In this document: positions 10,311 through 64,000 of the stretch, piece by piece | Layout: every line of letters starts with the position of its first letter | Numbering within the stretch: the first letter of the stretch is position 1 | From: Planctomycetota bacterium | Lineage (GTDB): Bacteria; Planctomycetota; Planctomycetia; Gemmatales; Gemmataceae | Length of the DNA: 64,000 bases | Assembly (NCBI GenBank): GCA_016873095.1 | Contig: VGYC01000001.1 | Location: 62,001 to 126,000 of the forward strand | Direction: 5' to 3' | Program-made: the position numbers and the translations under genes | Notes under the pieces: generated by a model | Seen by the model: only the letters and a program-made list of their open reading frames with translations | Told to the model about the DNA's origin: nothing | The model's database searches: none

Positions 10311-11162
10311 ATGAGAATCCTTGTGCTGGGTAATGCGAACCGGCCGGGCGTCAAGGAAGAGGCGGAGCGCATCTTGCCTTTTCTGCAGCAACATTGCGAG
10401 ATCGTGCTCGTGGATCTGTATCAAGAGTGCGATCTGTCCACCGTGCCGCAGGCTGATCTGGCGCTGGTGCTCGGAGGTGATGGAGCGATCCTGCGGGCTG
10501 CACGGCAAATGGGCTATCGTCAGGTGCCGGTGCTGGGGGTCAACCTCGGCCGACTAGGGTTTCTTGCCGACCTCGATCCGGAAGACCTGCGCACTTGCTT
10601 CCCGCGCGTCAGCCAGGGGGAGTACAAGATCACGCGGCATGTGATGATCGAGTGTCGCCTGGATGGTCCAGCCCCGAAATCGTTCCTCGGCCTGAACGAG
10701 GTCGTCGTCCATTCCTTGCCTCCCTTCCACATGCTTGATCTGCATCTGGCGGCGGACGGTGATGCGGTCGCGCGATTCTCCGGCGACGGCCTGATTGTCA
10801 GCACGCCGGTCGGCTCGACGGCCCACAGTCTCTCGGCGGGAGGCCCGATCCTCGGGCAAGAGCTGCCGGTGTTCGTTGTCACGCCGATTTGCCCGCATTC
10901 GTTGACCTATCGGCCGGTGGTGGACTCGGCCGACAAGGAGTACATTATTACCCTGGGCTCGCGCTCCGAGGCCGCATCGCTGATCGTCGATGGTCAGGAA
11001 AGCGTGACCCTTGCCGCCGGACAGCGGGTGTTGATCCGGCGGGCAGCGGTTGCCTTCGAGCGGGTCAAGGTCGCAGGCAGAGGATTCTATCAGACGTTGC
11101 GGGAGAAGCTGAGCTGGGGCGTGCTGCCGACGTACCGTGATGAACCAAAATCAGCTCGCTAG
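10311..11162 (+). CDS. nadK: NAD kinase
   Basis: Phosphorylates NAD to NADP in the cytoplasm. The 283-residue protein has the GGDG motif at residues 55-58 (ALVLGGDGAILRAAR), the LGFLADL block, the LNEVVVH segment that positions a catalytic/NAD-binding asparagine-glutamate pair, and the glycine-rich STPVGSTAHSLSAGGPI block near 164-180. Length and domain order are normal. TTATAC at 10296-10301 may be part of its promoter. The acylphosphatase gene follows 32 bases downstream. Confidence 0.95.
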   Translation: MRILVLGNANRPGVKEEAERILPFLQQHCEIVLVDLYQECDLSTVPQADLALVLGGDGAILRAARQMGYRQVPVLGVNLGRLGFLADLDPEDLRTCFPRVSQGEYKITRHVMIECRLDGPAPKSFLGLNEVVVHSLPPFHMLDLHLAADGDAVARFSGDGLIVSTPVGSTAHSLSAGGPILGQELPVFVVTPICPHSLTYRPVVDSADKEYIITLGSRSEAASLIVDGQESVTLAAGQRVLIRRAAVAFERVKVAGRGFYQTLREKLSWGVLPTYRDEPKSAR

Positions 11163-50939: not shown

Positions 50940-52676
50940 CTATTTGCAGACGCGCAATAGTTCCTGGATCGAAGTCTTTCCTTCAATCACCTGGCGAAGG
51001 CCATCCTCGTAGAGATAGCGCATGCCGCTCTTGACGGCCTCCTGCTTGATGGCAGTCATGTTCGGGTTGTCGCGGATCATGTCGCGAATCTTTTCCGTGA
51101 TAACGAAGAGCTCGAAGACGCCGGTGCGTTTCTGGTAGCCGCTGCCGCCGCAATTCTCGCACACTTCCTCTTCGGATTCCTCACCGTCGTTCTGCTCGGG
51201 GGGCTTGTAGAAGAACTTGATCTTCTCGACGGGCAGGTTGGCCTTGCGCAGCAGCTCGGGATTCGGCTTGTAGCGCACCTTGCACTTGGGACAGAGCAGG
51301 CGAACCAGGCGCTGGCCGAGCACGCCAGAAAGTGCGCTGGCGATCATGAATGGCTGGACGCCGAGATCGATGAGTCGACCGAGTGCCGTCACGGCATCGT
51401 TGGCGTGCAGCGTCGTGAATACCATGTGCCCGGTCTGGGCAGCCTGGCAGGCGATCTCGGCTGTCTCCTTATCCCGAATCTCGCCGATCATGATGACATC
51501 GGGGTCCTGCCGCAGGATGCTGCGGAGTTCCGTGGCGAAAGTCTTGCCGGCCTTCGGGTTGACCTCGATCTGCGTGACGTTTTCGAGCTGGTATTCCACC
51601 GGGTTTTCGATGGTGATGATATTCTGCTGATATCGATCGATCTCGTTGAGGCAGGCGTACAGCGTCGTGCTCTTGCCGGCCCCGGTCGGTCCGCAGACGA
51701 TGAACAGGCCGTGCGGCTGGGTGACGATGCTGCGCAGCTGTGTGTGCATCTTCTCGCGCATGCCCAGCTGCTCGAGGCTGATGATCTGCTGAGAGGTATC
51801 GAGGATGCGCATGACCAGCTTTTCGCCGGAAACACTGCCGGAAGTTGCGACGCGGAAATCGACGACGTGGTCCTCCACTTGCGCAGACATGCTACCGTCC
51901 TGTGGCTTGCGTTTCTCGGTAATGTCCATGTTGCAGAGGACCTTGAAGATGCTGATTACCGCGTCGCCGGTGGCACGGCTGAAAGGATCGGCGGGCGTGA
52001 GCATGCCGTCGATGCGGAAGCGCACGGTCATCTCGCTCTTGGTCGGTTCCAAGTGGATGTCCGTCGCGCGGCGATTGCAAGCATCGTAAACCATTTCCTG
52101 CGCCGTCTTGTAGCCAACCGATTCCATGACTCGAGCCACACGATTGGGATCGTCGGGCTGACCCTCGCTGCGTCGGCCAAAGAAGCGCACCGGCACGCCG
52201 TCTCTTGCGGTGTCGTCGGATGCCTTGCCGAAGTCAAGCTTCAGGTAGCGGCGCGCCAGGCTGCGCAGATGGTCCGGCGTCAGCACGCGCTCCGGCGCCT
52301 TCACTTTTCGGTTGCGCACGCTGACGTAGTACAGGGATGGAGCGGCGAGCAGCAGCACGAAGACGAAGAAAGATAGCCAGAAGACCGGCATGATCCAGAT
52401 CATGATCAGGCTGAGCGCGCCGCCGGCGAGCATCAAGCCATTCCACATGTCGCCCGGCAGGCTCAATTCCTGGGCATCGCGGTCTACCCAGCTCGAGGTC
52501 TTGATCCAGGCGGCATAGATCGCCAGAAAAAGGATGACCGTGAAAATGTCGAAGTAGAAGCCTTCTCCACGTGGAAACGGCCCATCCGCGGCCCACGCGC
52601 CAGCGGGCAAGGCAAGCACGGCGATGACCACCGTTGCGAACAGGCGTGATTTGCGAACGAGGCGCTTGACTGACAT
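50940..52676 (-). CDS. GspE/PilB-type ATPase with membrane-anchored N-terminus
   Basis: A 578-residue type II secretion/type IV pilus assembly ATPase. The C-terminal half is standard: Walker A GPTGAGKSTTLYACL (about residue 325), Asp box and Walker B MIGEIRDKETAEIACQAAQTGH, His box, and a tetracysteine Zn site (CPKCKVRY near 462 and CENCGGSGY near 502). The N-terminus is unusual. Residues 10-30 look like a signal peptide (VVIAVLALPAGAWAADG), followed by two or three membrane helices (about 42-62 and 78-118) where GspE/PilB normally have a soluble N1E/MshEN domain. pilT lies just upstream and cvpA downstream. It is likely membrane-tethered (inference). Confidence 0.88.
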   Translation of the reverse strand: MSVKRLVRKSRLFATVVIAVLALPAGAWAADGPFPRGEGFYFDIFTVILFLAIYAAWIKTSSWVDRDAQELSLPGDMWNGLMLAGGALSLIMIWIMPVFWLSFFVFVLLLAAPSLYYVSVRNRKVKAPERVLTPDHLRSLARRYLKLDFGKASDDTARDGVPVRFFGRRSEGQPDDPNRVARVMESVGYKTAQEMVYDACNRRATDIHLEPTKSEMTVRFRIDGMLTPADPFSRATGDAVISIFKVLCNMDITEKRKPQDGSMSAQVEDHVVDFRVATSGSVSGEKLVMRILDTSQQIISLEQLGMREKMHTQLRSIVTQPHGLFIVCGPTGAGKSTTLYACLNEIDRYQQNIITIENPVEYQLENVTQIEVNPKAGKTFATELRSILRQDPDVIMIGEIRDKETAEIACQAAQTGHMVFTTLHANDAVTALGRLIDLGVQPFMIASALSGVLGQRLVRLLCPKCKVRYKPNPELLRKANLPVEKIKFFYKPPEQNDGEESEEEVCENCGGSGYQKRTGVFELFVITEKIRDMIRDNPNMTAIKQEAVKSGMRYLYEDGLRQVIEGKTSIQELLRVCK

Positions 52677-52704
52677 ACCGGCGGGAAACCTCTCGGATTG
52701 CGAC

Positions 52705-53832
52705 TCACAGAATGCCCGGCGTTGCCACCTTGATGCCCTTGAGCGCCATCTTTAGCTGTTCCGGATTGGGTGCGTATTCCAGGGCGGTTGCCCTGTCGAT
52801 GTCGCCGCGGTCCACCAGCTGCCGCAGATTTTCGGTGAAATCGACCATGCCTTCTTGCGAGCACATGCGGATGGCGTCCAAGATCTTCGAGTCTTCCCCC
52901 TCGCCGATCAGCTTGCGGACGATGGGGTTGACGATCATGATTTCATTCGTGGGGACGCGCGACACACCCGGCTTGATGCTCTTGACGAGCTTCTGGGCCA
53001 CGATCGCCTTGAGGTTGTTGGCCAAGGCTTGACGGATGGCATTGTGCTTGTCCGGCGGGAACAGGTCGAGGATGCGGTTGATGGTGGTGGCCGCACTGGC
53101 GGCGTGGATAGTGCCGAACACCAGGTGGCCTGTCTCGGCGGCATGAATGGCGGCCTCGAACGTCTCAATATCGCGCAACTCGCCGACCAGGATCACGTCA
53201 GGATCCTGCCGCACCGCATCCTTCAGCGCCTTGTGCCAGTTGATGCAGTCCAGGCCGATCTCGCGCTGATTGATGTACGCCTTCTTGTCCTCGAACGTGA
53301 ACTCGATCGGATCCTCGACGGTGAGGATATGCAATGGCTCGCGCGAATTGATGTAGTCGAGCATGGAGGCGATGGTCGTGCTCTTGCCGGAGCCGGTGAC
53401 GCCCGCCAGGATCACCAACCCCTCGGAGAAGTTGCACAGGCCTTCGATCGACGGTGGCAGACCGAGCTTTTCGAAGCTGGGGATGCTAGTGTTGACGCGG
53501 CGGGACACCAGCGACAGCCGGCCGCGCTGCCGGAACAAGCTGACGCGAAACCGGCACTCGTCCTGGCCCACGACGTAGGAAAAATCCACGCCGCCTTCCT
53601 CGTCAAGGATCTTGCGCTGCTTGTCCTTGAGGCAGGGAAGCAGCAGCCGTTCCATGTCGTCCTGGGTAAGCGGCCGCATTTCCATGCGGCGGATGTCGCC
53701 GCGCAAGCGCATCATCGGCGGCTGCCCCACCTTGAGATGCAAGTCGGATGCCTCATGCTTCATCACCATCCGAAACAGCTTGTTGACTTCCGGTTCCTTG
53801 CGAACCTCCGGGGGTGCTTCCGCCGTGGCCAT
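52705..53832 (-). CDS. pilT: Type IV pilus retraction ATPase
   Basis: A 375-residue hexameric ATPase that drives pilus retraction. It shows ASDLHLKVGQPPMMRLRG, Walker A GVTGSGKSTTIASML (about residue 145), Asp box TVEDPIEF, Walker B LVGELRDIETFEAAIHAAETGHLVFG and the His-box HAASAATTINRI. The AIRNLIRE-like C-terminal block of PilT (usual AIRNLIRE) is not exact here. The opening LFRMVMKHEASDLHL is family-typical. GAGGAG precedes the ATG. It sits between a GspE/PilB-like gene and hisF; the pilus inner-membrane protein PilC and the prepilin genes are not in the window, apart from the broken prepilin-like gene. Confidence 0.93.
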   Translation of the reverse strand: MATAEAPPEVRKEPEVNKLFRMVMKHEASDLHLKVGQPPMMRLRGDIRRMEMRPLTQDDMERLLLPCLKDKQRKILDEEGGVDFSYVVGQDECRFRVSLFRQRGRLSLVSRRVNTSIPSFEKLGLPPSIEGLCNFSEGLVILAGVTGSGKSTTIASMLDYINSREPLHILTVEDPIEFTFEDKKAYINQREIGLDCINWHKALKDAVRQDPDVILVGELRDIETFEAAIHAAETGHLVFGTIHAASAATTINRILDLFPPDKHNAIRQALANNLKAIVAQKLVKSIKPGVSRVPTNEIMIVNPIVRKLIGEGEDSKILDAIRMCSQEGMVDFTENLRQLVDRGDIDRATALEYAPNPEQLKMALKGIKVATPGIL

Positions 53833-54764: not shown

Positions 54765-57700
54765 TCACTCCATCGTCCGCGTATTGTAGCGGCGCTGATA
54801 GTCGTGGTGGCGCGGCGTGCGCGGATAGTGCTCGGCCGGGCCGTAGGGGAAGCGGGACATGGCGCGGAAGGGCAGGGGGGCAATGTCACCGCCGGTCATG
54901 GTGAACGGCCCGCAACCCTTGCAGTAGCCGGCCGTGCGCAACACGAAGCTGCGCTGCCAGCCGCTGGGCAACGCCGGTAAGCCGCGGCCATCGAAGCGGA
55001 CCGAGACTTCCTCGCCGGGTCCGAAGATGACGAAGCAGTCGTCGCGCTCGCGCAGCAGTTCCGTCACCGAGCCCAGTCTGGTTAACTTGCCGTTCTGCCT
55101 GGTAAACGGCGGGCGTTCGAGCTGGTCGTAGTCGTAGAGGGCAGGCTGCCGGCCGTCAGGGGAGACTTCCTTCATGAAGCCGCGCTTCTCCAGTTCCGCG
55201 TCATGCACATCGAGCACGCGGCAATGCGATAATTGGCCGGGCTGGCCGCGCTGCGCGACGGGCGCGATGAAGGCCTGGTCCCAGAAGACGCACATGTTTG
55301 TCTTGATTCGTAGCACGCAGCGGCCGCCGCCAAGCTTGCCGGTAACATCGACGGCCATCATCCGCGGCAGCCCGGCGGGAAAACCCATGTCCGCGCTGAC
55401 GGCGGTCCATGTGCCGTCGCTGCCCAGCCGATGCAACGTCGGCGGTTGCAATGAAATGCCCGCCTGGTTTGCCGCCCACATCGAGTCCGGATAAGCGTAA
55501 TCGGTCCAGCCGGCGAGGAACAGCACCAGCGCGTCTTTTTGTGGGTACTTGGCGAGCTGCTCGCCGAAATCAAGCTCGACCCAGTGGTCTTCCGCGAAGC
55601 CGGTCCAAGCCCGCCGCGCGAAGCCGTTCACCATCTTGCGATCCCGGTGACGCAGCGTCTCGGTCACGTCGCGGCCACGATGATCACTCGCCTTGACGGG
55701 GAATACGCGCTGCCCGTCTCGAAATGCAAGCAAGTCCTGGCTGGGCGGCGGACCGGAGAGCGTGAAGCGCTCGTCGGGATAGACGCTGATACCGGGCGGC
55801 TGATCGATGACCGCGAGCTGCAAGTGATCCAGGTAGGTCACCTCGTCCATCGGCTCGGCGATCTTGAGGACGTAGAAGCCGTCGCGCGGCTTCAACTGTC
55901 GAGGCTCGATCTTGACGGTCTCCTCCGGCCGGGGTTGCATGCACGTGCCATCCGGCATGGCCTCGCCCAGCGTGCCGACCCCCAGAAAATCGGTGACGCA
56001 GGTGTAGCGCTCGCCGTCCCAGGTGAAGAGGACGGGGCAGGAATCCGGCTTACGGTTGCGCTGATCGATCATCAATGGCTTGCAGCTCGCGAGTTCAAGC
56101 TCGGCTTGCCAGCAGTTGTCCGGCCAGCGCAGGCGCAGGACTTCTGCCGAGTGCTTGCCGAGGCCGAGATGGATCGGCTGCAACGATTGGCCCAGGCCGG
56201 CCGAGAGCGTCGTGTACTCCAGCCCGGTCCAGAAATCCGCTGACTGGGCGACCACCCAGGTGCCGATGCCGTCGGCGTTGCAACGCACCGTCCGGCCTTC
56301 CGATTCAACCTTACGATGCCCTACTAGCGTGACATCGATCGCTCGCATTGCGTTGCCGAGGTTCCGGCGCCATTGCAAACCCTGTCCTTCGGACCAGATC
56401 AGCATGTCAGGAAAACAGGTCTCACCCAAGCTGACTGCGCCCAGCGCGATAATGTCATTAGGCCACGCGGCATCGCTTCCAAGCCCTTCCGAAGCGTGCG
56501 CCAGCTTCCCACCGCGATTGTGCAGCAGCACGGGACGTCCTTTCTCGGAAAGCCCAATGACGTCCGTCCAGCCGTCGTTATCGATATCGATGGCCTGCGC
56601 TTGGATCAGCGTCGGCGAATGGCATGGCCCTTCCTGGTACAGTTTTTCGAGGTTCTGCTCGGTGGCAATGGCCGGCTGGCTTAATAGCAAAATGGGCGGC
56701 GCGGCGGGACGGATGAGAAACAGGTCGGAACGCCGATCGTGGTTGGCATCAAGGACGAGAGCGCCGTTCCATGAATCGGTTCCGGTAAGCGCGGCCGGCA
56801 AAGATGCGGATCGCAAACGCAATAGACGGTCGTTTATCAAGGCTGATCCACCTGTGCGATCGGCGAGGACCAGCACGTCGGTATCCCGATCGCCGTCCAG
56901 ATCCACAGCGGCGACTGTCATGGCCGATTCAAATTCAGACAGCGATTTGGCGTCGAATTTGCGGAAGGCCGGCCGCAGCGGCGGCGCATCCTCCTTGACG
57001 TTCAAGGGAACCTTCGCTTCGCCCACGTTCAGAAAAACGCGTAGCCCTCCCGACGCGACACCCTTACCGGCCAGCGACTCAAGGGTTTCCTCGGAACTGG
57101 CAGCATACCGAGCGATCAGCAGATCGAGGTCCATGTCCTGGTCTAGGTCCACGAAGCAGCTACCCAGGCAGACGCCGCTCATCTTGTCGAGACCTGCTTC
57201 ACGCGTCACGTCGGCAAATACTGCTTTGGCACCTTTGTTGCGAGATTGATTCTGAAAGAGCCAGTTTCGCCCGGCCCCGGTAATGAAGATGTCTGGGTAG
57301 CCGTCATTGTCGAAGTCAGCGACGGTGCAGCCCAGGCTCGGTCGCGTTTCGGCGAGGCCCGCTTCATGCGTCACATCCTCGAAAGTCAGCCTACCCCTTT
57401 GGAATCCACGATTCTTCAGCAGTAGATCACGAACCTGATCGTCCTCGACTACGGCGCCAGCCAGAAAGAGGTCTGGAAGACCGTCGCGATTGAAATCCAG
57501 CACGACCATCGTGGCCCCGAATCGACGACGGATCTCGCGTCGAAGATTGGCAGTTGCGTCCTTGCCGAAATCAAGCGCCCGGGCCCAGCGGGCGCCCGTT
57601 TTCAACTTCACATCCAGCCTGTCATCTGGATGAAACAATGGAATCGGCCCGATGTTTGCGGCCTGGTGCTTCCTTGGCGGCGTTGAAATTACTTCAGAGT

Positions 57701-58415
57701 ATCTGCCTGGCTCGCCATATGCCGACTTCTCTTGGTCGTAAAAGCGATCCAGTGCTTTTTGAGCATTGTCGAGGCTGTCGGCACGTTTTTGGTCCGAGCC
57801 CTTGGGCGAGCGATGCAACATCTGCGCCAAACCGTAAATAGCCGATCGCAAATGAGGATCAAGCTGGACGGCTCTTTCAAGGCATTTCAGCTTCTCGTCG
57901 GCTTTGTCCAAATCAAGCATCAATCCGCGAAAATACCAGGCATGCGCGTCATTGGGATCGATTTGCGTTACTTTCTCGAAGTGCGGCAACGCTTTGTCGC
58001 GATCGCGGAAGTGGAGAATATAGCCAAGACAAAAATGGGCATGCGGCTCGTCCGGCTCTTTGTCCAGCACCTGGCGAAATATGGCGGTGGCTTGTTCTAG
58101 AAACTCGGGCTTATTGCGATTGTAGAGAGCGATTGCACGATTCACGTGTCCCGGCGTCCAGTCCGGCGCCATGCGGACCACCTCGGCGAAAGCCGCCGCC
58201 GCCTCCTCGTACTTGAATTGCTCCATCAGCCCCACGCCGCGATTGTTGACGCTGTAGACGGCTGACATGGCGGTCGTGTCGGCATCGGACCTGGACCAGT
58301 ACCACCAGGCAACGCTGCCGCCGGCAACCAGCACTCCCAGTGCCAGCCAGATCAGCCAGCCGCGCGCCGTCCGCGGTTGCGATGCATTCGATTGCCAGCC
58401 CGAAGATTGCGACAT
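54765..58415 (-). CDS. Giant TPR / FG-GAP / ASPIC-like protein
   Basis: A 1216-residue protein. A short basic leader is followed by one membrane helix (about residues 17-42, WLIWLALGVLVAGGSVAWWYW), then TPR units (about 55-225; GVGLMEQFKYEEAAAAFAEVV, YLHFRDRDKALPHFEKVTQ-like). Next are FG-GAP/VCBS calcium-binding repeats (DFNRDGLPDLFLAG, DFDNDGYPDIFITG, DIDNDGWTDVIGLS, ...) in a propeller-like middle. A C-terminal ASPIC/UnbV-like region contains VLRLRWPDNCW. A late CKGCGP motif is present. It is probably anchored in the membrane with the bulk outside. ATG 58415 has GAGG upstream; ATG 58430 is possible. It is divergent from the CRTAC1-like gene. Confidence 0.85.
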   Translation of the reverse strand: MSQSSGWQSNASQPRTARGWLIWLALGVLVAGGSVAWWYWSRSDADTTAMSAVYSVNNRGVGLMEQFKYEEAAAAFAEVVRMAPDWTPGHVNRAIALYNRNKPEFLEQATAIFRQVLDKEPDEPHAHFCLGYILHFRDRDKALPHFEKVTQIDPNDAHAWYFRGLMLDLDKADEKLKCLERAVQLDPHLRSAIYGLAQMLHRSPKGSDQKRADSLDNAQKALDRFYDQEKSAYGEPGRYSEVISTPPRKHQAANIGPIPLFHPDDRLDVKLKTGARWARALDFGKDATANLRREIRRRFGATMVVLDFNRDGLPDLFLAGAVVEDDQVRDLLLKNRGFQRGRLTFEDVTHEAGLAETRPSLGCTVADFDNDGYPDIFITGAGRNWLFQNQSRNKGAKAVFADVTREAGLDKMSGVCLGSCFVDLDQDMDLDLLIARYAASSEETLESLAGKGVASGGLRVFLNVGEAKVPLNVKEDAPPLRPAFRKFDAKSLSEFESAMTVAAVDLDGDRDTDVLVLADRTGGSALINDRLLRLRSASLPAALTGTDSWNGALVLDANHDRRSDLFLIRPAAPPILLLSQPAIATEQNLEKLYQEGPCHSPTLIQAQAIDIDNDGWTDVIGLSEKGRPVLLHNRGGKLAHASEGLGSDAAWPNDIIALGAVSLGETCFPDMLIWSEGQGLQWRRNLGNAMRAIDVTLVGHRKVESEGRTVRCNADGIGTWVVAQSADFWTGLEYTTLSAGLGQSLQPIHLGLGKHSAEVLRLRWPDNCWQAELELASCKPLMIDQRNRKPDSCPVLFTWDGERYTCVTDFLGVGTLGEAMPDGTCMQPRPEETVKIEPRQLKPRDGFYVLKIAEPMDEVTYLDHLQLAVIDQPPGISVYPDERFTLSGPPPSQDLLAFRDGQRVFPVKASDHRGRDVTETLRHRDRKMVNGFARRAWTGFAEDHWVELDFGEQLAKYPQKDALVLFLAGWTDYAYPDSMWAANQAGISLQPPTLHRLGSDGTWTAVSADMGFPAGLPRMMAVDVTGKLGGGRCVLRIKTNMCVFWDQAFIAPVAQRGQPGQLSHCRVLDVHDAELEKRGFMKEVSPDGRQPALYDYDQLERPPFTRQNGKLTRLGSVTELLRERDDCFVIFGPGEEVSVRFDGRGLPALPSGWQRSFVLRTAGYCKGCGPFTMTGGDIAPLPFRAMSRFPYGPAEHYPRTPRHHDYQRRYNTRTME

Positions 58416-58607
58416 GAGCCACCTCGCCATGCCAATGTTGCCAACGAAAGAATGAAAAAGCCGCGAGTCTCTACCCATGTCTACGGAAAAACGGGGCGCT
58501 GGTTCGTGCCGGCGATCCTTTTGCCGTTCACGGCGTATTGACACCAGCAACGATCGGCTCTTTACTTAAAGTATCCTTATTCCTTTCATCGCCGACGAGG
58601 GAGTTTC

Positions 58608-60626
58608 ATGCGCATCATCAACGCTAGCGTCGGGGGGGGGCGGATGCTCGTCCTCCTCCTGGTGTTGCTCGGAGCGATCGCGCCTTTTCTCGCGTCCTGC
58701 CAGAAAACGGTAGCGCCGGACGAACCCAAGAACGAGGAGTCCAAGAGCCTGCCGTTCTTTGAGGACGTGACCGCGGTTTCCGGCATCGATTTCATGTACC
58801 GCAACGGCGAGGAGGAACCCCACTATCCCAAGCGCCGGGAGAGCGACGGCAAGAAGATGAGCCCGCACTACGCAATCGTGGAATCGCTGGGCGGCGGGCT
58901 GGGAATGATCGACTACGACGGCGATGGCTTGCCCGATATTTTCATCGCCGGCGGCGGCTATTATGACGGCCCCGATCTCAAGCAGATGAAGGGGCATCCG
59001 AACCGCTTCTACAAGAACATGGGGAACTTTCAGTTCAAGGACGTGACCAAGGATGTGGGCCTGCACGAACCGCTGTTCTTCAGCCACGGCTGCGCCGTGG
59101 GCGACTACAACCGCGACGGCTGGCCGGACTTGCTGGTCACCGGCTATGGCCGGGTGGCCCTGTTCCGCAACGATTCGGACGGCAAGGGCGGGCGCAAGTT
59201 CACCGAGGTCACCAAGGAGGTCGGCCTGCTCGGCGACCATTTCTGGGCGACCAGCGCCGGCTTCGCCGACTTCGACGGCGACGGCTGGACCGACCTCTAC
59301 ATCTGCCAGTACGTGAACTGGTCCTTCCAGAACAATCCGAAGTGCGGTGGCTATCACGCCAAGGCCGTGCAAGACGTTTGTCCGCCGAAGACGTTTCAGG
59401 CGCGACCGCATGCCGTGTATCGCAACGACGGCAAGGGCCACTTTGTAAACGTGACACGCGAGTCGGGCATTCGCATCGATCGCCGGGCCGAGGTGCCTGG
59501 ATTGCAAGAAAAGCTCAAGCAGAAGCGCAAGGACCTCGAAGCCCGACAGGCGACGCTGGCGCCGCGGAAAAAGGGGGAAAAGATGGCGGCCGAGGCAGCC
59601 GAGCAAATTGCCGGCCTCGAACGTGACGTGGAGACACTGGAGCGCGACCTGGCCCGAGCCGAGAGCGACGAGTTCGGCAAGGGGTTGGGACTGGTTATCC
59701 TGGACGTCAACGGCGACGGCAAGCCGGACATCTACGTTGCCAACGATACGGTTGACAACTTTTTGTACCTCAATCGCAGCAAGCCGGGGATGATTCGCTT
59801 CGCCGAGGTCGGCATGGAGATGGGAGTTGCCAAGGATGATCAGGGCACGGCTCAGGGCAGCATGGGAGCCGACGCCGCCGATTTTGACGGCAGCGGCTGG
59901 CCGGCTCTGTGGGTCACGAATTACGAGGGCGAATTGCACGCCCTGTATCGCAACATTGTCAAGGGTGGACGGCAATATTTCGCGTTTGCGACGAGCATGG
60001 CCGGCATCGCCGCGATCGGCCAGCAGTTCGTCGGCTTCGGCACGGGCTTTCTGGATCTGGACAACGACGGCTGGGAAGACCTGTTCATCTCCAATGGGCA
60101 CGTGATTCGCCACCCGTTCCCGGCGCCGCTGGCGCAGCGACCGGTGCTGTTTCGCAACGCAGGACTGGGAAAGTTTCGTGAAGTCTCGAAGTCGGAAGGC
60201 AAGTATTTTCAGACGGGCCATCGCGGCCGGGGCGTCGCCATCGGCGATCTCAACAACGACGGCCTGCCAGATATCATTGTCAGCCATGTCCAGGAGTCCG
60301 TGGCCATCCTGCGCAACGTGACGGCGCCGGCGAACCACTGGGTTGGCGTGCAACTGGTCGGGCGGGACCGGCGCTCGGCCGTCGGCGCCAAGGTGACACT
60401 GGAAGCGAACAAGCGCACCTTGACGCGCTTCGCCAAGGGCGGCGCCAGCTATCTGTCAGCCAACGACAGCCGCATCATCTTTGGCCTTGGCCACGCCACG
60501 CAGGCCGGCAAGCTGGTCGTCCACTGGGATTCCGGCACGCCGCGCGTCGAATCGTGGCATGGACTGGCGACCGACACCTATCATCGCCTCGAGCAAGGCA
60601 AGGGGCAAGTGGTCGAGGTGAAATAG
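58608..60626 (+). CDS. CRTAC1-like FG-GAP/ASPIC-UnbV lipoprotein
   Basis: A 672-residue exported protein. The N-terminus has a lipoprotein signal (LLVLLGAIAPFLASCQK, lipobox LASC). FG-GAP/VCBS calcium-binding repeats follow (DYDGDGLPDIFIAGGG, DYNRDGWPDLLVTGYG, DFDGDGWTDLYICQY, DVNGDGKPDIYVANDT, DLNNDGLPDIIVSH). A charged coiled-coil helix (LQEKLKQKRKDLEARQATLA, about 298-340) interrupts the series. The C-terminus is an ASPIC/UnbV-like domain ending in HRLEQGKGQVVEVK. A run of nine G (58632-58640) lies within the signal peptide codons; an in-frame ATG at 58644 follows it. It is convergent with the heptaheme gene. Confidence 0.88.
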   Translation: MRIINASVGGGRMLVLLLVLLGAIAPFLASCQKTVAPDEPKNEESKSLPFFEDVTAVSGIDFMYRNGEEEPHYPKRRESDGKKMSPHYAIVESLGGGLGMIDYDGDGLPDIFIAGGGYYDGPDLKQMKGHPNRFYKNMGNFQFKDVTKDVGLHEPLFFSHGCAVGDYNRDGWPDLLVTGYGRVALFRNDSDGKGGRKFTEVTKEVGLLGDHFWATSAGFADFDGDGWTDLYICQYVNWSFQNNPKCGGYHAKAVQDVCPPKTFQARPHAVYRNDGKGHFVNVTRESGIRIDRRAEVPGLQEKLKQKRKDLEARQATLAPRKKGEKMAAEAAEQIAGLERDVETLERDLARAESDEFGKGLGLVILDVNGDGKPDIYVANDTVDNFLYLNRSKPGMIRFAEVGMEMGVAKDDQGTAQGSMGADAADFDGSGWPALWVTNYEGELHALYRNIVKGGRQYFAFATSMAGIAAIGQQFVGFGTGFLDLDNDGWEDLFISNGHVIRHPFPAPLAQRPVLFRNAGLGKFREVSKSEGKYFQTGHRGRGVAIGDLNNDGLPDIIVSHVQESVAILRNVTAPANHWVGVQLVGRDRRSAVGAKVTLEANKRTLTRFAKGGASYLSANDSRIIFGLGHATQAGKLVVHWDSGTPRVESWHGLATDTYHRLEQGKGQVVEVK

Positions 60627-60636
60627 CCTCGCCCAA

Positions 60637-62685
60637 TCAGGGCGACGGAAAGTGCACCTTGGTGGAAAGCACTTCCTTGCCGGTGGGCTCGGAACGGGAG
60701 AAGGCGGCGTTGGGATCGCCACGGTAACCGGTGCGTCGCAAGGCATCGAGCCAGGTCTTGCGGGCATCGGCGTTGCCCGGGTCCAGGTGAAGCCAGTGAC
60801 GGCTGTGCACAAGAACGCCTTGCCAGTCCTGCTTGCTGGCCAGCAAGCGGGCGAGGTTATCGCGATAATTAGCCATCCAGGGATTCACGGCAACCGCGCG
60901 CTGCCAGTAATCCGTTGCCGGTTCCAACCGGCCGAGGACTTGTGCGGCGGCCGCTGCCATGCTCAAGGAGATTTCGCGATTTGGTCTCTTCTGCAAGACG
61001 GTTTCGTAGGCTGCCAGACTCTCGGCCAGTCGGCGTTCAAGAAACAGGCCGTACGCTTTTATCTCCCAGGCCGTCACGTCATCGGGATCGTCCACGAGGG
61101 CTGATTCGAGGATGCGAATCGCCGACGATGTATGTCGCGGGTCGAGCTTTCCCTTGGCGATAAGCTGAATCATGGCAATGCCCAGATCGCGGCTCAGACT
61201 CTTATCGGCCAGGTCGATCTTGCCTCGGTGAAAATGTGCCAGCGGCAAGCCCTGGCCGTGCCCAGGCGGCGGCTCAGGCCCTTCCTTGTCGGGTGGCTGC
61301 GGCTTGCGCACAATGCGATGGTCGGTGGAAGCGGCGTGGGCAATGTCCGACGACGAATAGCGGGGCATATGGCAAGCCGCGCAGTTGTCCGCGTTGCGGC
61401 TTCGTTCGGCCAGGCTCAAACTGCAAGAAGTCCTTTCGTCACCCCCCTTGTCCTTCGCAACGGCGTGGCAGCGCAGGCAGCGTTCGCGATAATGGACGAC
61501 GGTTTCCTCGGGTCGCACGCGCTGGTGGGGGTTGTGACAAGTGATGCAGCCCAGCTTGTTATCCCCGTGGCTGCGCTCGAAACAGCGGCTGAGGTACATC
61601 TGCTCGACGTGATTGACGGCCTTCTTGTCCAGCCCGGTCTCGCGGGGATGGACAAAGGTCGAGACAAATTGGTCGAGCGGCATGCCGGGCCGATAATCAA
61701 ACAAGCCGCGTTGCCGCGGCAGAACGCGATTCTCCCCTTCCAGGTGGCATTGCTGGCAGACTGCCTCGCGCAGGTCGTGGCGTAGCTTGCCGGGATGCAC
61801 GATGGAAGCGTCAAGCCTTCTGACGCGTTCGCGCAGAAATGGCCGCATCTCCTCCGCAACCGATTGCAATCGCTGTTGCCGCACGTGCTTCTCGCCGGGC
61901 CCGTGGCAGCGTTCGCAGCCAATCGCGTGTCCGGAAATGTAGGGTGGCTCGAACTGATTGATGGTGTCCTCTCTGGGGAACGCCAGGTTCGTGTGGCAAA
62001 ACAGGCAGGCTCCCTTGACGGGCCGAAGTCTCTGCACCGTGAAGCCCGGCGAGTTATCCCAGATCTTCTTCTGCGAATACCAGCTGATGGCCGTCTGAAA
62101 CAAGAAGCCATCGCCCAGAAAGCTCAAGTACGAGTGCCCGTGGCTGCCGGAGCCGATGGCAAACTGGGCCTCGACGGCCGTTTCAAAATCCGGACGCTTG
62201 CTGGCGTCCAAATGGACTTCGTGGTGATAGACGCGCTTGCCGCGCCGTTCCACACGAAATGCCGACTCTTGAAACAAGAACGGATTGTTGCTGGCCTTGT
62301 CGTACGACTGCGAGCCGGATAGCTGGGCCATGGGAATCAACGACAACGCCATGGGCGAATGCAGATAGGTTCCTGCGATATCGTCGTGACAGCCGGCACA
62401 CGCATCCGTGCCCACGTACTTGACGTCCGGATGAACGTTCTGAAACGGCCCCAAATAGGATCGGCGCGGATCGGGAGCGGCTTCTTTCTCAATGATCGGA
62501 GGGTCGCTTCGAAAGAAGAATGGGAAAAAACGCTCAGCCAGCAAGGTGGCGGCGGCAATGAGTATGACGCCCAGAAAGGCAAGTCGAAGACCGGACCAGT
62601 GGGAGCGCGCGCTGATCGGCTGGGTCGTCTGAATCGGTTCGGGAAACTGCTCTTTGGAGCCAGTGTCCGCGTCGTCGCGATTCAT
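60637..62685 (-). CDS. Membrane-anchored heptaheme cytochrome c with C-terminal TPRs
   Basis: A 682-residue protein. One membrane helix lies near residues 32-52. Seven CxxCH haem sites follow in order: CAGCH, CLFCH, CERCH, CQQCH, CITCH, CLRCH and CAACH (about residues 95-450). They are spaced irregularly, in the cytochrome c554/c3-like style of multihaem proteins. From about residue 510 the protein becomes a TPR-like helical array (VLQKRPNREISLSMAAAAAQ, ATDYWQRAVAVNPWMANYRD). It has no catalytic lysine-haem site that I can recognise, so electron transfer is the safest call. The upstream TPR gene ends 21 bases before it. Confidence 0.87.
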   Translation of the reverse strand: MNRDDADTGSKEQFPEPIQTTQPISARSHWSGLRLAFLGVILIAAATLLAERFFPFFFRSDPPIIEKEAAPDPRRSYLGPFQNVHPDVKYVGTDACAGCHDDIAGTYLHSPMALSLIPMAQLSGSQSYDKASNNPFLFQESAFRVERRGKRVYHHEVHLDASKRPDFETAVEAQFAIGSGSHGHSYLSFLGDGFLFQTAISWYSQKKIWDNSPGFTVQRLRPVKGACLFCHTNLAFPREDTINQFEPPYISGHAIGCERCHGPGEKHVRQQRLQSVAEEMRPFLRERVRRLDASIVHPGKLRHDLREAVCQQCHLEGENRVLPRQRGLFDYRPGMPLDQFVSTFVHPRETGLDKKAVNHVEQMYLSRCFERSHGDNKLGCITCHNPHQRVRPEETVVHYRERCLRCHAVAKDKGGDERTSCSLSLAERSRNADNCAACHMPRYSSSDIAHAASTDHRIVRKPQPPDKEGPEPPPGHGQGLPLAHFHRGKIDLADKSLSRDLGIAMIQLIAKGKLDPRHTSSAIRILESALVDDPDDVTAWEIKAYGLFLERRLAESLAAYETVLQKRPNREISLSMAAAAAQVLGRLEPATDYWQRAVAVNPWMANYRDNLARLLASKQDWQGVLVHSRHWLHLDPGNADARKTWLDALRRTGYRGDPNAAFSRSEPTGKEVLSTKVHFPSP

Positions 62686-62706
62686 GTGCCTTCTCCCCTG
62701 AGCCTC

Positions 62707-64000
62707 TCAGCGCTCGAAAGCCTCGAGACGCGACGAGAAATAGCGCGTGGCCTGTCTGCTTGCCTCGGTCCTCGATTCCTCAAACAGAGCACCTGCCCGA
62801 CTGTTCCAGAAAGCGGCTGCCTCGCGAAAAGCGCCCTGTGCTTGGCGCAGGTCCCCCGCCTCGACGGCGAGCATCCCTTGCAAGACCTTGTTGCTGGCAC
62901 GCTGCTGCATCAGGGAGACGATGGACATGACCTGGCTGTTGAGGAAACTCACACCGGGAAACTGAAAGCGGGTAATCGTGGGCATCAACCGCCCAGGGCC
63001 GGCGCTCGCCTCATAGAGCAAGGTGTTTGCCACGGCCAGTCCCAGCAAGTCAGCAGGCGTGATGGGTCTATCGGCAACCATTTCAACAGCATCCATCTTG
63101 CCCAGAGCTTCAGCGGCGTCGCCATAGTTCCCCAGTGCAGCCTCCGACTGGGCTCGAATCAGGTAGTAGGTCGAGTTCGTCAACAAGCCACGGTGCTTGG
63201 GACTGAGCCAGTGCTTGACCTTGGCTGCCTCCCCGGCATTGAGCAGGAGCTTGAGTTCCATCTCCAGTCCGGCGGCGCCAAAGGCGGCAAGATCGGATGC
63301 GAGAAGCGTTTCCAGCGCCTTACCCGGGAGCCCAAGATTGCCGGCCATGTCGGCGCGGTCGGAAACGCGCATGTTCGCGGAATTCACGGCCCAGCGGTCA
63401 TTGAGCGACTTCAGTTCATTCTCGAGCACTTTCAAGCCCTTTTCCAGGTTTTGCATGCGGCTCTGAAACTGCTCTCTGGACTCGCCACGTGTCATGGTGC
63501 GATGCACGTAGCTCTCGCGCAGGTGAAAAAAAGTCAGATCGCGATATTCCATGGTCCGAAAGATCTCGGCCAGGCGCTCGTGGGCCCGCCAGTGCCGCGG
63601 ATCAAGTTCGATTGCCTGTCGATAAGCCGCGAGCGTCTGACTGGTGCGCAGATTGCCGACCAGAGATCCCCAGCTTCGTTCGCGCGAGAAGCGTCCGAGC
63701 CGATCGTATGTCTCACCAAGAAGAAAAAAGAGTTGCGCCTCGGTGGGATCGCGTGCAATGGCGCGGCGGGCGCTCCGTATCCCCAGATACAGAGCTTCGA
63801 TCGGACCGGCGTCAAACTGAGCGAGAAAGGCTTGCATGAGCGGCCGATTCGGGGCTGCCTGCGTCGTGCTCAGCAACCAGCAGGGGCCGCTCATGCCGCA
63901 GGCGGCCACGAACTCGGCGTATTCCTTGGCTCTGCCAAGCTGGACGGTCGAGGACGTGATATCTTCGAGAAAAGCATCGAAGTAGGTGAGCAGCGTCGCC
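62707..64000 (-). CDS. TPR-containing protein, 5' end beyond the window
   Basis: The frame is open from 62707 to the window edge (an internal GTG at 63909 is not needed), so the start is missing. About 430 residues are visible. They are helical throughout with TPR-like patterns (QLFFLLGETYDRLGRFSRE, TLAAYRQAIELDPRHWRAHERLAEIF, YLIRAQSEAALGNYGDAAEAL). No signal peptide can be judged. It ends 21 bases before the heptaheme cytochrome gene on the same strand, so they likely form an operon. The function is unknown. Confidence 0.7.
   Translation of the reverse strand, partial: ATLLTYFDAFLEDITSSTVQLGRAKEYAEFVAACGMSGPCWLLSTTQAAPNRPLMQAFLAQFDAGPIEALYLGIRSARRAIARDPTEAQLFFLLGETYDRLGRFSRERSWGSLVGNLRTSQTLAAYRQAIELDPRHWRAHERLAEIFRTMEYRDLTFFHLRESYVHRTMTRGESREQFQSRMQNLEKGLKVLENELKSLNDRWAVNSANMRVSDRADMAGNLGLPGKALETLLASDLAAFGAAGLEMELKLLLNAGEAAKVKHWLSPKHRGLLTNSTYYLIRAQSEAALGNYGDAAEALGKMDAVEMVADRPITPADLLGLAVANTLLYEASAGPGRLMPTITRFQFPGVSFLNSQVMSIVSLMQQRASNKVLQGMLAVEAGDLRQAQGAFREAAAFWNSRAGALFEESRTEASRQATRYFSSRLEAFER

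Follow-up and report, generated by a model that had tools for sequence, protein, structure and literature searches.

A planctomycete TPR/FG-GAP/heptahaem gene cluster as a probable part of a larger extracytoplasmic electron-transfer module, and a candidate selenoprotein family beside it

What might four adjacent genes that recombine TPR, FG-GAP, ASPIC and multihaem modules do together in a planctomycete envelope? This question is raised by the last 9 kb of a 64,000-nt stretch of DNA, here called the window (G000:C1:62001-126000), from an 8.36-Mb draft genome in 548 contigs (G000, the source genome). An earlier note, made from the letters of the window, had read these genes as a candidate surface electron-transfer or assembly system. 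We refer to them as CYT (heptahaem cytochrome), FGG (FG-GAP/ASPIC lipoprotein), BIG (TPR/FG-GAP protein) and TMTPR (multi-transmembrane (TM)/TPR protein), and to a fifth protein, encoded elsewhere in the genome, as PENTA (di-haem-b/pentahaem-c/TPR). The open reading frame (ORF) check and Pfam matches place all four genes where the earlier note had put them, and the 10-base gap it had reported between the convergent FGG and CYT was confirmed as CCTCGCCCAA. Our analysis indicates that the cluster is probably, with a probability that we put at roughly 0.6, one local combination drawn from a larger extracytoplasmic electron-transfer module; this module may plausibly serve extracellular electron transfer at the cell surface. 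The cluster represents a variant, not described before, of redox systems whose kinds are known. Its follow-up also yielded a candidate selenoprotein family that would be new and is well supported.

The heptahaem cytochrome CYT and its fold class

CYT (60637..62685, minus strand) carries exactly seven CxxCH motifs, at residues 96, 227, 257, 310, 380, 403 and 435, together with one N-terminal TM helix (residues 29-58) and a C-terminal TPR superhelix, which bears out the proposed combination of seven haems, TPR and a membrane anchor. Conservation was scored over 73 homologs from five phyla (Planctomycetota, Acidobacteriota, Bacteroidota, Marinimicrobia and Ignavibacteria), some of which show a lipobox instead of the TM anchor. 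The seven haem motifs are beyond chance because every one of them is invariant across this set (73/73). H267, H387, H450, H456 and the non-haem C368 are likewise invariant, and M440 is also kept. Haem 3 conforms to CxxCHGPGxxH, with C257-H261, G262 and H267 invariant and P263 and G264 present in at least 90% of the 73 sequences. Residue 112, which aligns with a histidine of OcwA and c554, is Met in 64/73 and His in 8/73, an exchange that would be expected of an axial ligand; by analogy with c554, this residue would serve haem 4. Two further cysteines, C368 (73/73) and C421 (64/73), belong to no haem motif and could pair as a disulfide or bind a metal. The family includes other haem numbers, as relatives with nine haem motifs occur at loci L184 and L188; at L080 and L173, eight-haem genes with weak similarity to CYT adjoin it.

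An AlphaFold2 model of full-length CYT (pLDDT 85.4) comprises the TM helix, a haem domain (residues 82-478; 61252..62442, minus strand) whose haems 1 and 2 are separated by a beta domain, and the TPR superhelix (residues 495-665; 60691..61203, minus strand), which resembles MamA (Z 19.4). The haem domain modelled alone reached a pLDDT of 86.5, and a Foldseek search with it returned two matches below 0.001, both of them chains of OcwA, a nonahaem terminal reductase from the outer cell wall of Thermincola (PDB 6i5b; PMC6703420). VIA-align ranked the same structure highest (Z 16.5 over 311 residues), ahead of the S-layer undecahaem cytochrome of Carboxydothermus ferrireducens (PDB 6qvm; Z 12.6 over 261 residues), the octahaem sulfite reductase MccA (PDB 4rkm/4rkn; Z 9.4) and c554 (Z 6.6), with all others at or below 5.3. 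A profile of full-length CYT matched TPR proteins only, and the haem domain was cut out; the profile of the 73 excised domains then recovered the same four proteins from the PDB by hmmsearch, with E values of 1.2e-23 (OcwA), 3.7e-12 (6qvm), 1.4e-9 (MccA) and 4.3e-9 (c554). Profile and fold thus both assign the CYT haem domain to the OcwA/NrfA/c554/MccA multihaem superfamily, while neither Pfam nor NCBIfam holds an equivalog for CYT, TMTPR or PENTA.

The likeness to OcwA extends to the profile, the fold of the haem domain, the CxxCHGPGxxH signature of haem 3 and the extra beta domain inside the haem domain, which is also found in MccA. In the profile alignment, haems 1-4 and 6-8 of OcwA correspond to haems 1-4 and 5-7 of CYT. 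CYT nonetheless lacks OcwA haems 5 and 9 and the C-terminal three-helix bundle, and differs from OcwA in its C-terminal TPR superhelix, its N-terminal TM anchor and the Met in place of His at residue 112. With seven CxxCH motifs rather than nine haems, and with a TPR superhelix replacing the three-helix bundle, CYT is not OcwA proper. The undecahaem cytochrome 6qvm, the second-best fold match, is a larger chain with 11 haems, for which the match reports no TPR arm. MccA shares the fold and has its catalytic haem 2 in the equivalent place, but CYT has seven haems, not eight. The MccA/SirA sulfite reductases are defined by a CX15CH (CX12[NA]KGCH) haem site (PMC6976685), and CYT, whose seven sites are all plain CxxCH, can be ruled out as one of them. 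Both of the closest structures, OcwA and 6qvm, belong to Gram-positive bacteria in which extracellular electron transfer has been studied.

Partner proteins, co-occurrence and gene neighbourhood

FGG (58608..60626, plus strand) is a CRTAC1-like lipoprotein in which FG-GAP_3 (2e-42; 144 bits, cut-off 26.9) and ASPIC (8e-13; 48.6 bits, cut-off 23.4) both score above the Pfam cut-offs, and it matches the structure of human CRTAC1 (9etn, 3.8e-14). The domains, the lipobox (FLAS|C at residue 31) and the inserted coiled coil foreseen for it are all present; the insert (residues ~291-353; 59478..59666, plus strand) is private to this protein, being absent from 4/4 aligned relatives. BIG (54765..58415, minus strand, in an ORF open to 58550) is a TM-anchored protein whose TPR (TPR_2, 1e-9) and FG-GAP propeller (FG-GAP_3, 3e-21, in four stretches) are clear. 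Its proposed ASPIC-like part is a weak match, with 18.8 bits (1.5e-3) by hmmscan and 24.4 bits (cut-off 23.4) in the genome search. The best-conserved part of BIG is a long C-terminal region (residues ~820-1260). The TPR protein announced upstream of CYT does lie there, 21 bp away and in the same orientation (62707..64000, minus strand), but the window holds merely the C-terminal 430 residues of TMTPR, a 1064-residue protein that combines several predicted TM segments with TPR and extends to C1:127901 (window position 65901). Past TMTPR, the opposite strand encodes a DUF1559 protein, a 167-residue lipoprotein, two TPR proteins and two further FG-GAP genes.

PENTA (~1060 residues) combines an N-terminal helix bundle with five CxxCH motifs and TPR, and is encoded in the source genome beside an FGG (L211:8048-11524, on G000:C14, plus strand) as well as at 26 loci of relatives. 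Histidines H94, H112, H168 and H182 of the bundle are kept in 28/28 membrane-bound members, and because of these four conserved TM histidines we read the bundle as a putative di-haem b domain. An FG-GAP/ASPIC gene directly adjoins PENTA in 18/27 loci. The fusion of membrane helices with conserved TM histidines to a multihaem c domain recalls the quinone-facing cytochromes CbcL/MtrH/MtoC and ImcH (PMC6295460). PENTA differs from them in its N-terminal bundle, five c haems and TPR tail, so that the likeness is one of plan and not of domain order. It is not CbcL-type, since in that type the di-haem-b bundle lies C-terminal to the c-haem domain, and in PENTA the haem domain is the C-terminal one.

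The presence of CYT, FGG, BIG and PENTA was scored across 59 relatives, with p values that ignore phylogeny and genome size. CYT goes with FGG (28-3-5-23, p 1e-8), BIG with PENTA (27-4-3-25, p 2e-9) and BIG with CYT (p 4e-7), so the co-occurrence check that the earlier note had suggested came out in favour of CYT, FGG and BIG going together (p 1e-8 to 4e-7). BIG was found in 31/59 relatives, almost always as a single copy; the TMTPR family is commoner across the relatives than the others and its association is weak. We also fetched loci around family matches, in relatives and in named genomes of several phyla, and derived the expected numbers of FG-GAP/ASPIC genes from their measured density. 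CYT loci of the named genomes contained 30 such genes against 2.9 expected and those of relatives 8 against 0.6, and 21 were seen around BIG and PENTA where 0.6 were expected.

These neighbourhoods do not bear out the four genes as one unit. The operon partner of CYT is TMTPR, which directly adjoins it in 7/40 loci of relatives as well as in the window, often alongside the DUF1559/lipoprotein/TPR cassette. BIG instead has an FG-GAP/ASPIC gene and PENTA as its neighbours in one third of its loci; it lies far from CYT in complete genomes and is mostly unlinked to it in relatives, with the two close in L089 and L152. The exact four-gene order of the window had no second instance among the loci of relatives, and a CYT/FG-GAP fusion protein, sought among the fetched loci, was not found there. 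L160 (CAIWZS010000274.1) unites PENTA, FGG, CYT, a second FGG, DUF1559 and BIG, and at L185 (Edaphobacter lichenicola) CYT is accompanied by two FGG and a pentahaem/TPR protein that lacks the helix bundle. What stands of the proposed electron-transfer system is thus the co-occurrence of its families, the enrichment of FG-GAP/ASPIC genes near CYT and a haem domain closest to OcwA and the S-layer undecahaem cytochrome; what falls is its being a single conserved unit. TonB-dependent receptors with carboxypeptidase-regulatory domains were seen near CYT in an acidobacterium (L164:6080-9760) and a marinimicrobium (L168:12851-16300).

An FG-GAP/ASPIC gene with one in-frame TGA

Located 6.5 kb past the window end, another FG-GAP/ASPIC gene (L010:7558-10011, equivalent to G000:C1:132558-135011, plus strand) is interrupted by one in-frame TGA (9349-9351 of L010) that separates its FG-GAP part from its ASPIC part and is followed by a hairpin. 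The source genome holds a second copy of the whole cassette (DUF1559/167-residue protein/TPR/TGA-containing FG-GAP/FG-GAP) at L301 (G000:C19:22001-42000), with the same TGA and the hairpin at 10757-10795. One internal TGA was evident in 8/8 places, that is, in these two copies and in six homologs of relatives that are 43-62% identical. Across 392 genomes of the phylum it was retained in 27/29 places, the remaining two having AAT (Asn). All told, 34 distinct loci have TGA at one aligned codon, and the alignment shows no gap at the junction; these loci include L153, where the gene is again near CYT. Apart from isolated exceptions, the residues around the TGA read PDG-U-x-C-[LVI]-W, or ED[LT]-U-xxxW in a distant group.

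The hairpin has six pairs, begins 14 nucleotides after the TGA and is paired in 98% of cells. Compensatory changes occur at 3/6 pairs, a figure as high as which was reached in 0/500 shuffles, and no slid register was comparable; RNAalifold proposes the same hairpin unaided. Third positions of four-fold codons are conserved at 0.60-0.76 at codons +6 to +9 after the TGA, versus mostly 0.2-0.45 elsewhere. In most of the distant group a different stem, capped by a GGUC or GGUCG loop, takes roughly this position. A covariance model gave the hairpin sites scores of 45-59 bits, with no other match exceeding 15.1 bits in 1.18 Mb; matches of 13-15 bits in L148 and L076 are near the noise level. The folding z-score of the 63-nt stretch of the source genome alone is modest (-1.26), and the case for the hairpin therefore rests on covariation.

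The source genome encodes adjoining selB (2e-114) and selA (1e-171) on G000:C81. No selenocysteine tRNA (tRNA-Sec) was found in its 548-contig draft; among the genomes compared, a strong tRNA-Sec, taken as one of at least 65 bits at a line drawn between two clear score groups, was present in 22/27 genomes with the TGA gene versus 4/31 without it (p 1.6e-7). Ordinary gene callers split the gene into two ORFs and a start-like TTG follows the TGA, features that, like the tRNA-Sec missing from the source draft, would suit a stop that divides separate FG-GAP and ASPIC genes or marks a pseudogene. Two separate genes fail as an account, however, because a single stop type is invariant, the junction is ungapped and the hairpin covaries. 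The four-fold sites conserved over the hairpin, the selB-selA pair and the association with tRNA-Sec further speak against either variant of this explanation, which we hold to be very improbable. The FG-GAP/ASPIC protein just past the window is thus very probably a selenoprotein, and the aligned codons and covarying hairpin make its family a strong candidate for a new one. Pfam and NCBIfam have no family for the protein and Rfam has no match at the hairpin. Our literature search found no paper on an FG-GAP/ASPIC selenoprotein, a search that did not cover the planctomycete selenoprotein supplement of PMC4807772, where an earlier mention is possible. The candidate shares the in-frame UGA, the downstream hairpin and selA/selB with known bacterial selenoproteins, among them multihaem cytochrome (seleno)proteins (for example ExtKL and MccSep); it departs from them in its FG-GAP/ASPIC fold, its lack of haem and its U-x-C motif. 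Its neighbourhood suggests that it may work together with the cytochrome.

A possible electron path and its competitors

The analysis establishes the architecture of the proteins, the fold class of the haem domain, the conservation of its haem sites, and the co-occurrence and neighbourhood of the families. On this basis, PENTA would exchange electrons with the quinone pool, from a gene placed elsewhere in the source genome beside another FG-GAP/ASPIC gene. CYT, which retains haem 2, the open, substrate-binding site of OcwA, c554 and MccA (PMC6703420), would act as a membrane-anchored OcwA-like distributor or terminal reductase on its TPR arm. The CRTAC1-like FG-GAP/ASPIC lipoproteins may be its accessory partners in the envelope, and selenocysteine in one of them would give the propellers a redox centre of their own. 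We infer the path and direction of the electrons, the docking of TPR arms to propellers and exposure at the surface from these features. In its full form, that is, an undescribed planctomycete and partly acidobacterial envelope system in which a PENTA quinone module, CYT and CRTAC1-type propellers are redox partners and one selenoprotein subfamily (U-x-C, SECIS-like (selenocysteine insertion sequence) hairpin) belongs to the chain, this proposal is tentative.

Several observations weigh against this reading. Edaphobacter, Saprospira and Gemmata, which have relatives of CYT, are not known for respiring solids; these genera are aerobic heterotrophs, which speaks against simple metal respiration. 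No multihaem porin conduit turned up, although none was searched for, and the barrels noted beside CYT, in two loci of other phyla, are of the TonB type. Within ~10 kb of CYT, 33/40 loci of relatives have no FG-GAP gene, BIG and CYT are usually unlinked, and the co-occurrence statistics take no account of phylogeny. The fold does not decide the substrate of CYT because OcwA also reduces small molecules, and MccA only those.

In the main competitor of the electron-transfer module, CYT is a periplasmic small-molecule oxidoreductase whose open haem 2 would act on nitrite, hydroxylamine, sulfur species or an organic substrate, with FG-GAP proteins serving assembly or substrate delivery and no extracellular electron transfer. 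In its favour, nitrite and hydroxylamine are both reduced by OcwA (PMC6703420), the c554/MccA/OcwA class has haem 2 as its open catalytic site, C368 and C421 could build a metal site, and both the flanking TonB-dependent receptors of L164 and L168 and the aerobic heterotrophic lifestyle of the host genera would fit. The closest structures are nevertheless cell-surface or S-layer cytochromes whose hosts have been investigated for extracellular electron transfer, CYT has no MccA-type CX15CH site, and no catabolic gene was recognised as a recurrent neighbour of CYT, most neighbours not having been annotated individually; we consider this competitor rather unlikely. Less probable still is that the four genes are neighbours by accident, as members of expanded modular planctomycete families (TPR, FG-GAP, DUF1559, multihaem) that share a replicon and a lifestyle but no common complex. 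Such an origin would agree with BIG and CYT being unlinked in most relatives, the unrepeated gene order, the multiple copies of these families (16 ASPIC matches in the source genome) and tests blind to phylogeny and genome size. It sits poorly with the 10- to 35-fold enrichment of FG-GAP/ASPIC genes near CYT, BIG and PENTA, their direct same-strand adjacency in Acidobacteriota and Planctomycetota, the co-occurrence of BIG with PENTA (27-4-3-25), and loci L160 and L089, which reunite CYT, BIG, PENTA and FGG.

CRTAC1/ASPIC FG-GAP proteins range from bacteria to humans. The CRTAC1-type genes described here have the same Pfam domains as known ones and differ from them in being linked to OcwA-class and b/c cytochromes and in having one subfamily with an in-frame UGA. 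Our literature search found no role for the bacterial proteins, and the sole relevant paper on FG-GAP/ASPIC/CRTAC1 with multihaem proteins or selenoproteins describes hydrazine-synthase homologs of other bacteria that likewise have a CRTAC1-type gene alongside (PMC12758564). The consistent link to multihaem cytochromes offers these proteins a testable role. If confirmed, the joining of an OcwA fold to a TPR arm would widen that class to include Planctomycetota, Acidobacteriota and Bacteroidota. UGA-containing FG-GAP/ASPIC genes, halved by ordinary gene calling at nearly every locus analysed here, are probably mis-annotated wherever present.

Upstream of the cluster, two secretion/pilus-type ATPase genes lie beside hisF (50940-53832, minus strand); we take them to be PilB- and PilT-like from reading their sequence. 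Since the DUF1559 proteins near CYT are pilin-like and these pilus-type ATPases are close by, a pseudopilus link is conceivable.

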